Shown in pieces: positions 3,708 through 5,308 of a stretch of 63,135 nucleotides of DNA. A model generated the notes under the pieces. It was given only the letters and a program-made list of their open reading frames with translations. It did no database searches and was not told where the DNA came from. This DNA comes from Alphaproteobacteria bacterium (GTDB lineage Bacteria; Pseudomonadota; Alphaproteobacteria; Sphingomonadales; Kordiimonadaceae), in assembly GCA_021774735.1 (NCBI GenBank), contig JAJFIS010000018.1, positions 1 through 63,135 on the forward strand, read 5' to 3'. The translations under genes were made by a program, and so were the position numbers. Within the stretch, counting starts at the first letter, position 1; each line of letters starts with the position of its first letter.

Positions 3708-4424
3708 ATGGTTCAACGCTATGACACACAGTATGGTGCCGCTGCTGGCACCGATACCAGAGAATTTGATGCGGGCCTGCGGGCCTATATGCTCAAGGTC
3801 TATAACTATATGGCCTCCGGCGTCCTGCTGACCGGCATTGTGGCGCTTTATGCCAGTCAATCTGATGCCTTAATGAATATTTTATTTGGTTCGCCGCTTG
3901 CTTATGTAATTATGTTTGCGCCTTTCGCCTTTGTTCTGGTGATGAGCTTAGGCATCAACAAAATGTCCTCTAGCGCTCTGCAAATGATCTTTTGGGCCTT
4001 TGCTGCGACCATGGGACTATCTCTCGCTTCAATATTTATCGTTTATACTGGCGAAAGCATTGCCAGAACATTCTTCATCACCTCCGGCATGTTCGGCGCG
4101 CTGAGCCTTTATGGTTACACGACCAAGAAAAGCCTGAGCGGATGGGGAACTTTCCTCTTTATGGGTCTCATCGGGCTTATTATCGCCAGTGTGGTGAATA
4201 TGTTCCTCGGCTCCAGCATGATGAGCTTCATCATCAGCGTTGGTGGCGTTTTGGTCTTTGCTGGTCTAACCGCTTATGATACGCAGAAGATCAAGGAAAT
4301 GTATGCCTATACTACTACCGGTGAATCAGTGGCAAAGTCCGCAATTATGGGGGCATTAAACCTTTATCTTGATTTTATCAATCTGTTCATGTTCTTGCTG
4401 CATTTCCTCGGCAACCGCGAATAA
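3708..4424 (+). CDS. Bax inhibitor-1 / YccA family membrane protein
   Basis: This 238-residue protein has about seven closely spaced hydrophobic segments and a charged N-terminus, as in the TMBIM/BI-1 family. Typical family traits are the LRAYMLKVYNYMASGVLLTG start of the core and the late LTAYDTQKIK segment, where the conserved Asp lies. Family members act as pH-sensitive calcium leak channels or as regulators of membrane proteases such as FtsH; which applies here is unknown. The start has a strong ribosome site (AAGGGGAAAG). The gene is monocistronic, with a strong terminator immediately downstream. Confidence 0.9.
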   Translation: MVQRYDTQYGAAAGTDTREFDAGLRAYMLKVYNYMASGVLLTGIVALYASQSDALMNILFGSPLAYVIMFAPFAFVLVMSLGINKMSSSALQMIFWAFAATMGLSLASIFIVYTGESIARTFFITSGMFGALSLYGYTTKKSLSGWGTFLFMGLIGLIIASVVNMFLGSSMMSFIISVGGVLVFAGLTAYDTQKIKEMYAYTTTGESVAKSAIMGALNLYLDFINLFMFLLHFLGNRE

Positions 4425-4452
4425 TCTAGCTTTAAAGCTACAAACAAACACG

Positions 4453-4483
4453 AAAGCCCGGGCATAAAACCCCGGGCTTTTTT
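4453..4483 (+). terminator. Rho-independent terminator after the BI-1-like gene
   Basis: A perfect 10-bp stem AAAGCCCGGG (4453-4462) pairs with CCCGGGCTTT (4471-4480) around an 8-nt loop and is followed by a T-run. Confidence 0.92.
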
Positions 4484-4496
4484 ATGGTCTATAACT

Positions 4497-4511
4497 CGGC
4501 AATGTCTGCCG
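4497..4511. promoter_or_regulatory. Possible enhancer-binding palindrome for the sigma-54 promoter
   Basis: CGGCA-N5-TGCCG is a perfect 15-bp dyad about 80 bp upstream of the sigma-54 element at 4586. This is a usual distance for an enhancer-binding activator of the NtrC class. A third half-site, TTGCCG, lies at 4519-4524. The position and symmetry are seen directly; the function is inferred. Confidence 0.4.
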
Positions 4512-4585
4512 TCCCTTTTTGCCGGGTTCCCCCTAAATGACCCTCCAAATGGTTGAGTTCTGCAGAAATTCAGCCCCTTCAAAGC

Positions 4586-4601
4586 TGGCACAACCTTTGC
4601 A
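4586..4601 (+). promoter_or_regulatory. Sigma-54 (RpoN) -24/-12 promoter
   Basis: TGGCAC-AACCT-TTGCA has the canonical -24 TGGCAC, exact five-base spacing and -12 TTGC. It faces the small gene whose start is at 4638, with a predicted transcription start near 4611. The match to the RpoN consensus is essentially complete. Confidence 0.75.
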
Positions 4602-4637
4602 AAGTTAATTTAAATAGTAGCCTTGAGAGGACGTTTG

Positions 4638-4859
4638 ATGCAGCCCGTTGAATTTGAAAAAGATGTATATTTTGGCATCGTCGCCGAAAATCTAACCAAA
4701 AATTTTGGTGACAAAGCACTTAGCTATGCGCATGAAGCCTTGCGAAAAATGAAGGTTCTGGGCGACGATGAAGGTTTTGATCTGTGGCTGGAGATTGAAC
4801 GCCACCTAACCAATTTAGCCATCAATGACGCTGGCCCAACACCACAAACCATTCACTAA
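4638..4859 (+). CDS. Small hypothetical protein under a sigma-54 promoter
   Basis: This is a 73-residue soluble protein. It is predicted to be mainly helical, with an acidic/amphipathic core (HEALRKMKVLGDDEGFDLW) and no signal peptide or membrane segment. I do not recognise a named family; short helical proteins of this style occur in many Alphaproteobacteria. The ATG at 4638 is preferred over an in-frame TTG at 4623 because GAGAGGA lies just upstream of the ATG at the right distance. It is transcribed alone: a sigma-54 element sits 37 nt upstream of the start and a weak terminator lies downstream. RpoN control suggests a role tied to nitrogen status, motility or another RpoN regulon, which is inference only. 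Confidence 0.7.
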   Translation: MQPVEFEKDVYFGIVAENLTKNFGDKALSYAHEALRKMKVLGDDEGFDLWLEIERHLTNLAINDAGPTPQTIH

Positions 4860-4928
4860 CACGCGGGATCATGCTGGCACCCACCGGCCTCGCTTGTATC
4901 CGGGACATCACCCATGGCCCCGGAACCT

Positions 4929-4977
4929 AACCCGCCTCCAGATTTGCTTAATGCATCTCAGGGGCGGGTTTATCTTT
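4929..4977 (+). terminator. Probable terminator after the small sigma-54 gene
   Basis: AACCCGCC (4929-4936) pairs with GGCGGGTT (4963-4970). The 26-nt loop can fold into a smaller AGAT/ATCT hairpin. A T-rich tract (TTTATCTTT) follows. Confidence 0.5.
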
Positions 4978-5053
4978 AACTCTATATTTCTATTAACCAG
5001 ACGTTGATTATTTTAGTATTTAATGAAAACATATTGAATAAGAGAGTAAGAAT

Positions 5054-5308
5054 TTGATCGTTATGGATAGATCGACATTTAGACTTGATACATCAGGCCT
5101 GCTTTGCCCTATGCCTGTACTGAAAGCACGGCGGAAGCTTGCAGAAATGGAACCGGGACAATCATTGCAAGTGATCGCCACCGATCCATCCAGCCTGCAT
5201 GATATGCCCGCTTATTGCAGCATGGCAGGCCACAGCCTGTTAATGGCGGAAGAAAAAGACAACAGTTATATTTTTGAAATAGTCTGTGGCGATCAAGCTA
5301 ATAAATAA
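5054..5308 (+). CDS. TusA/SirA-like sulfurtransferase
   Basis: This is an 84-residue TusA-fold protein. The family passes persulfide sulfur between donors and acceptors in tRNA thiolation, molybdopterin synthesis or sulfur oxidation. The N-terminal LDTSGLLCPMPVLKARR carries the active-site Cys18 in a CPxP motif, followed by the beta-alpha-beta segment LQVIATDPSS. A TTG at 5054 has AGAG about 7 nt upstream; an in-frame ATG at 5063 is the alternative start. It converges on the TSUP/TIGR02186 pair, and sulfur-related neighbours fit a role in sulfur handling rather than only tRNA modification. Confidence 0.88.
   Translation: MIVMDRSTFRLDTSGLLCPMPVLKARRKLAEMEPGQSLQVIATDPSSLHDMPAYCSMAGHSLLMAEEKDNSYIFEIVCGDQANK

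Follow-up and report, generated by a model that had tools for sequence, protein, structure and literature searches.

The locus described here raises a twofold question. A lone small gene stands behind a near-perfect sigma-54 promoter and an enhancer-like palindrome: which cellular program would such a promoter serve, and what would the product contribute to it? In the original prediction, the arrangement was taken as the layout of a dedicated RpoN-controlled transcript. Throughout this text, the window refers to the entire 63,135-nucleotide stretch of DNA that was analyzed.

Features of the locus

The TGGCAC-N5-TTGCA site predicted at 4586 is present, reads TGGCACAACCTTTGCA in the sequence, and is of the sigma-54 -24/-12 type, with TGG at -24, GC at -12, and 10 bases between them (Table 1). 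The exact pattern occurs twice in the whole 2.78-Mb genome, and the same pattern written backwards does not occur there. The CGGCA-N5-TGCCG palindrome, which had been placed about 80 bp further upstream, reads CGGCAATGTCTGCCG; it is the sole exact copy within the window, and 74 bases separate it from TGGCAC. Translation confirmed the 73-residue open reading frame (ORF).

The gene had also been described as flanked by terminators, which holds in part. A hairpin lies on each side of the gene, and a six-T run at 4478-4483 overlaps the 3' arm of the first hairpin (4452-4481). On the other hand, the only strand on which the terminator scan places this first hairpin is the minus strand, and the second (4929-4970), with its poor U tract, is absent from the list produced by the scan. 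The same scan, which found 2 sites where 1.0 would be expected, reports the palindrome at 4497-4511 as terminator-like. The neighboring genes in the window are a Bax1-I family gene upstream and a TusA gene downstream.

Table 1. Positions of the features read at the locus, numbered from the first base of the window
Feature	Position	Strand	Basis or remark
Hairpin, probably an intrinsic terminator, 3' of the Bax1-I gene (3708-4424)	4452..4481	+	-19.5 kcal/mol, z -3.83
CGGCA-N5-TGCCG palindrome; probably an ftr-type enhancer site for FlbD	4497..4511		Motif and spacing as before flagellin and GGDEF sigma-54 sites; rival reading, terminator-like
TGCCGGG, possible second half-site adjoining the palindrome, weak alone	4520..4526		Relatives often have two or three sites
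Sigma-54 -24/-12 promoter, TGGCACAACCTTTGCA	4586..4601	+	Site upstream of 43/43 homologs
Expected transcription start, placed at the customary spacing 3' of the -12 element	4611..4611	+	Promoter position
GAGAGGA, ribosome-binding-site-like	4625..4631	+	Read from sequence
ORF of the 73-residue protein; three helices predicted (8-23, 25-41, 43-64), loose tail ending in -TIH	4638..4859	+	Translation, homologs, single-sequence model
Hairpin 3' of the small gene; may be a terminator, though its U tract is weak	4929..4970	+	-24.1 kcal/mol, z -4.30

Conservation of the promoter and palindrome

Homologs were collected by similarity to the single protein encoded at 4638-4859, giving a set of 43 copies (loci L004-L033 and L062-L074) in 43 of 59 genomes, the genome of origin included. 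The upstream DNA was read for all 43; a site had to contain TGG-N10-GC no more than 160 bases from the start codon and was scored at seven further positions. Every homolog has a site scoring at least 4/7, with 42 scoring at least 5, 37 at least 6, and 24 the full 7, while dinucleotide shuffles at the same thresholds (4, 5, 6, and 7) gave 1.87, 0.57, 0.085, and 0. At positions left free by the search, the C after TGG is found in 42/43 homologs and the two Ts before GC in 42/43 and 43/43. The weakest site, that of L065, scores 4/7 and lies far from the start. In addition, 32 of the 43 homologs have a GGCAA-N3-TTGCC-like palindrome scoring at least 9/10 in the 160 bases that precede the site (shuffles, 0.5; largest, 3).

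The original prediction had hinged on the -24/-12 bases being conserved, and such a site precedes all 43 homologs. The sequence of the one locus goes no further than suggesting a promoter; conservation upstream of homologs across the relatives, by contrast, shows that the arrangement is real, beyond chance. A chance or decayed match, with transcription arising from an ordinary promoter or by read-through, would be consistent with the looser sigma-54-like sites (≤2 mismatches) in the window, which are not enriched (21 observed versus 30.9 in shuffles). This explanation is nevertheless highly improbable given the recurrence of the site in 43/43 homologs against about 2 expected at the loosest threshold. 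It is further opposed by the strong hairpin upstream and by the result for sigma-70-type sites, of which none was found at 4400-5100, where just 1.4 would be expected by chance. Conservation of both the promoter and the palindrome lends comparative support to the predicted layout of a dedicated RpoN-type transcript with a putative upstream activator palindrome.

Relatives outside the order were sought by a class-wide profile search, which matched 12 of 385 genomes at an E value of 0.001 or better, weakly except for the genome of origin. That genome and G044, which was examined separately, were set aside, leaving 10 for analysis of the upstream site. Two of these (L139 and L141) have a sigma-54 site scoring 5/7 together with a palindrome scoring 9/10; no sigma-54 site of 4/7 or better was found for the other eight.

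In several more distant families, the small gene adjoins bioD-, bioB-, or bioA-like genes (identified by eye). Because the small gene keeps its own promoter, we read this adjacency to biotin-synthesis genes as an inherited position. In L024, L032, L066, L069, and L071-L074, the small gene comes directly after a bioD-like gene, with a bioA-like gene next in one case (also by eye). The idea of an operon in L072-L074, with an extra gene between the promoter and the small gene, was rejected: the suspected ATG is in frame with the small gene and marks an N-terminal extension.

A promoter arrangement in common with flagellin genes, and its candidate activators

The 29 genomes of the family were scanned with two patterns, each consisting of a palindrome, a spacer, and a -24/-12 site. 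The first (GGCAANNNTTNCC, 80-108 bases, TGGCAYNNNNNTTGCW) gave 20 matches and 0 in a reversed control; the next gene was the small gene in 14 cases and a flagellin in 6. The second (GGCANNNNNTGCC, 50-80 bases, TGGCNNNNNNNTTGCW) gave 23 matches, with 2 in the reversed control, and the next gene was a GGDEF gene (12), a flagellin (5), the small gene (3), or another gene (3, probably by chance). Joined, the 43 matches correspond to 42 promoters, as one promoter (in G014) was found by both scans, and they precede the small gene 17 times, a flagellin 11 times, one GGDEF family 12 times, and other genes 3 times. The palindromes of the patterns were chosen after the relatives of the small gene had been seen, and the informative part of these counts is the appearance of flagellins and the GGDEF family. 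For the genome of origin, the identities of flagellin, GGDEF, FlbT, and FlaF were confirmed with Pfam, and FlaF and FlbT lie beside the flagellins there; in the relatives, flagellin and GGDEF genes were recognized by sequence likeness. Since the scans yield flagellins and this GGDEF family, the promoter type is that of late flagellar genes. The original prediction missed this context, namely, flagellin and GGDEF genes with the same palindrome-plus-promoter arrangement and an FlbD in the genome. Members of the GGDEF family (INPYVSKLA...FDSxGWQLI) with a flagellin-like promoter are L038 / L180:1866-2552, L149, L150, L155, L157-L160, L162-L165, and L168.

Within the genome of origin, the exact sequence CGGCAANNNNTGCC occurs 15 times and has a sigma-54 site of at least 5/7 within 350 bases in two cases, that of the small gene and that of one flagellin. 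The best palindrome scores are 9/10 and 10/10 for two flagellins, 9/10 for the small gene, and 8/10 for the GGDEF gene; at seven other sigma-54-like sites (L034-L037, L039, L040, and L042), they are at most 7/10. The flgK sigma-54 site has a palindrome of just 7/10, and the motif is therefore not fitted by every flagellar sigma-54 site of the genome. As a candidate activator site for an FlbD regulon, the palindrome is common to the flagellin promoters and lacking at flgK. Separately, several GGCAA..TGCC-like palindromes lie between a TAGCAC-N5-TTGCA site and the start of a 998-residue gene with an SBBP repeat and without a flagellar domain (L181; G000 C4:33000-39000).

The genome contains rpoN (E value of 2.5e-68) and eight full-length enhancer-binding proteins. 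Five of the eight were scanned against NCBIfam, which identified one as FlbD (NF050807) and one as PrsR, each above cut-off; NtrC, NtrX, and PspF are names given by eye to the unscanned three. FliG-like and FlhA-like ORFs, as judged by eye, lie near flbD. Of the eight, FlbD and PrsR were taken into a co-occurrence test. PrsR is over cut-off in 20/59 genomes but in only 12 of the 48 that bear the gene (within family f1, only in G000) and is therefore not the conserved activator of a PrsR regulon that includes the gene. The PrsR-type protein of the genome of origin (L076; G000 C42:68012-69337) is a PEP-CTERM response regulator and is over cut-off in 0 of the 28 other f1 genomes searched.

FlbD is over cut-off in 49/59 genomes. 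By the single-protein search, it is present in all 43 gene-bearing genomes, and the gene is absent from 10/10 genomes without FlbD. A more sensitive profile search of the remaining 16 genomes gave five accepted members, three in genomes with FlbD (G030, G035, and G055) and two in genomes without it (G046 and G048). Two further candidates were dropped before counting: L176 in G058, which has a FliG-like look, and L147 in G044 (E value of 6.2e-4), which is part of a 241-residue frame and has no sigma-54 site within 220 bases. The five accepted members were picked up by their protein profile and not by their promoters; nevertheless, a sigma-54 site of at least 5/7 precedes four of them, with weaker palindromes (9, 8, 8, and 7 of 10). 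The fifth, L172 in G030, has no recognizable -12 element.

Over the 59 genomes, the gene and FlbD are both present in 46, the gene only in 2, FlbD only in 3, and neither in 8 (Fisher P of 3e-6, with kinship ignored). If the weak G044 match is counted, the table becomes 46/3/3/7 (Fisher P of 3.6e-5). In family f1, both are present in 29/29 genomes, while in family f5, FlbD is absent from 6/6 and the gene is counted in none; outside f1 and f5, the table is 17/2/3/2 of 24 (Fisher P of 0.18). As the signal is carried mostly by these two families, the co-occurrence suggests agreement with FlbD without proving it. The two genomes with the gene only differ in quality. G046 is one contig and 100% complete; its family member (L174) is preceded by a 5/7 sigma-54 site with an 8/10 palindrome, and no FlbD was found over cut-off. 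Because it is a complete single contig, G046 stands as a real exception to the pairing. G048, likewise with a family member and no FlbD over cut-off, is 81% complete. Conversely, no family member was accepted in three genomes that have FlbD, namely, G041, G051, and G058 (the last 89% complete).

These observations bear on whether the sigma-54 promoter might instead answer to another activator (L077, the LuxO-like L079, L080, NtrC, or PrsR), placing the gene in a different response. The genome encodes seven further full-length activators, G046 keeps the gene, its promoter, and an 8/10 palindrome with no FlbD over cut-off, and the weak co-occurrence outside f1 and f5 lowers our confidence in FlbD and raises it in such a rival. 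Against this stand the arrangement common to flagellins (11/43 scan matches) and one GGDEF family (12/43), the scores of 7/10 or less at the seven other sigma-54-like sites checked, and the limited occurrence of PrsR. On balance, we consider control by another activator improbable.

We therefore favor, with a probability of roughly three in four, a reading of the locus as a single-gene flagellar unit, in which RpoN would act at -24/-12, FlbD at the palindrome, and a partner-binding three-helix product would be made with flagellin-stage timing. RNA polymerase with RpoN (sigma-54) would bind the -24/-12 site, and FlbD, a flagellar enhancer-binding protein, would bind the palindrome or palindromes some 75-90 bases upstream and drive promoter opening, most likely at the stage of flagellin synthesis. 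The transcript would run from near 4611 to the hairpin after the gene, and its product would act by binding a late flagellar partner. That FlbD is the activator, when the gene is expressed, and what its protein does are inferred; as read from sequence, the arrangement most likely belongs to a late flagellar gene transcribed with RpoN and activated by FlbD at ftr-type sites. Because its promoter shares the design of the flagellin promoters of this bacterium, the small gene probably belongs, as a part not yet described, to the program that builds the flagellum. The regulon itself is a known one (most likely the FlbD-sigma-54 flagellar regulon); the small gene would be new in it, and its protein family is undescribed. 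If this reading is true, the flagellar regulon of these bacteria has a conserved component that Pfam and NCBIfam do not name at cut-off, and its promoter links it to the flagellin stage. The palindrome-plus-promoter pattern would also allow candidate FlbD targets to be listed at little cost in genomes that lack annotation.

The small protein and comparison with known systems

Of the 43 copies, 38 are 73-75 residues long, with start codons picked by script; these lengths depend on the chosen starts, and for L066 and L072-L074, the true start is probably an in-frame codon further upstream. Residues Y11, A16, L19, G24, A27, A34, D43, G46, W50, and H73 are invariant in a 20-row alignment. The C-terminal end is His preceded by a hydrophobic residue (FH, IH, LH, MH, VH, or YH) in 43/43 copies, and L137, L139, L144, and L146 among the ten class-wide relatives are also His-terminated. 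This end is kept despite a tail that is otherwise variable and, in the structure model, poorly ordered. Given the low confidence of the tail in the model, the conserved last residues may form a short linear motif.

The single-sequence structure model (mean pLDDT of 72.7) predicts three helices; the product is small and probably cytoplasmic. The original description of a product with no known function agrees with our searches: no Pfam or NCBIfam family cut-off was reached, and the NCBIfam scan gave no match. A profile search of solved structures had a best E value of 0.26, and Foldseek gave no match at an E value of 0.001 or better in PDB and BFVD. VIA-align over 24 chains matched small helical proteins, including several designed ones, with Z scores reaching 6.9; known flagellar chaperones are absent from the rows compared, and the result says only that the model resembles a small helical bundle. 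The sole match of a single-protein scan of the genome contigs, L086, was rejected as spurious (TPR-type by eye, with a shared stretch of 21 residues).

The nearest named family is DUF6961 (Pfam PF22284), which is alike in length and matches weakly over residues 20-61 of the small protein. The match (E value of 0.012, 16.2 bits) is below the 27-bit gathering cut-off for membership. Among the 20 aligned members, 10 match DUF6961 at an E value of 1 or better (best, 0.004). The distant relative L146, which lacks a sigma-54 site, is nearer to DUF6961 at 20.8 bits, still below threshold. No paper on DUF6961 was found in the literature searched.

The product most likely works by binding a partner, such as a late-flagellar assembly, export, or signaling protein, and not as an enzyme. 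Three more specific roles can be considered. We tentatively suggest, as something possible but short of probable, an undescribed family of late flagellar proteins in which a cytoplasmic adaptor of 73-75 residues, under FlbD and sigma-54 control, would dock by its C-terminal hydrophobic-His end on a flagellar or c-di-GMP partner, with a few distant relatives outside the order keeping the promoter type. A role as a chaperone in flagellin export or as a regulator of flagellin levels, by analogy with FlaF and FlbT, is unlikely: the promoter type shared with the flagellins, the predicted small helical fold, and the conserved end of the tail would suit it, while against it stand the FlaF and FlbT already present beside the flagellins and the three FlbD-bearing genomes (one being 89% complete) that yielded no accepted member. 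Also rather unlikely is a link, made together with the GGDEF protein, between late flagellar assembly and c-di-GMP signaling or a motile-sessile switch; what points to it is the shared promoter type, with the GGDEF family having the same arrangement in 12/43 scan matches.

Among known systems, FlaF and FlbT are small proteins of the flagellin stage, and the likeness of the small protein to them lies in its size and its proposed stage. They are nevertheless separate genes in the same genome, and the Pfam matches of the 20 aligned members include neither of them. The joint presence of FlbD, FlbT, and FlaF is a sign of an alphaproteobacterium. For the enhancer element, the comparison is with the ftr elements bound by FlbD, whose consensus we take to resemble GGCA...TGCC, i.e., the palindrome of this locus. 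An ftr consensus was not found in the literature searched, including the FlbD passages of PMC12421884 and PMC10274813. In Caulobacter crescentus, as described in parts of PMC3930126 and PMC7064773, FlbD acts through ftr elements to activate sigma-54 flagellar genes, and flagellin genes are under its regulation. The locus resembles the FlbD/sigma-54 promoters described there in its -24/-12 site, in the presence of flbD among flagellar genes, in an enhancer element set apart from the promoter, and in flagellins that appear to be similarly controlled. It differs from the C. crescentus system in that the ftr-type element is a reading of sequence only and that the putative targets include a GGDEF gene and an undescribed small gene.
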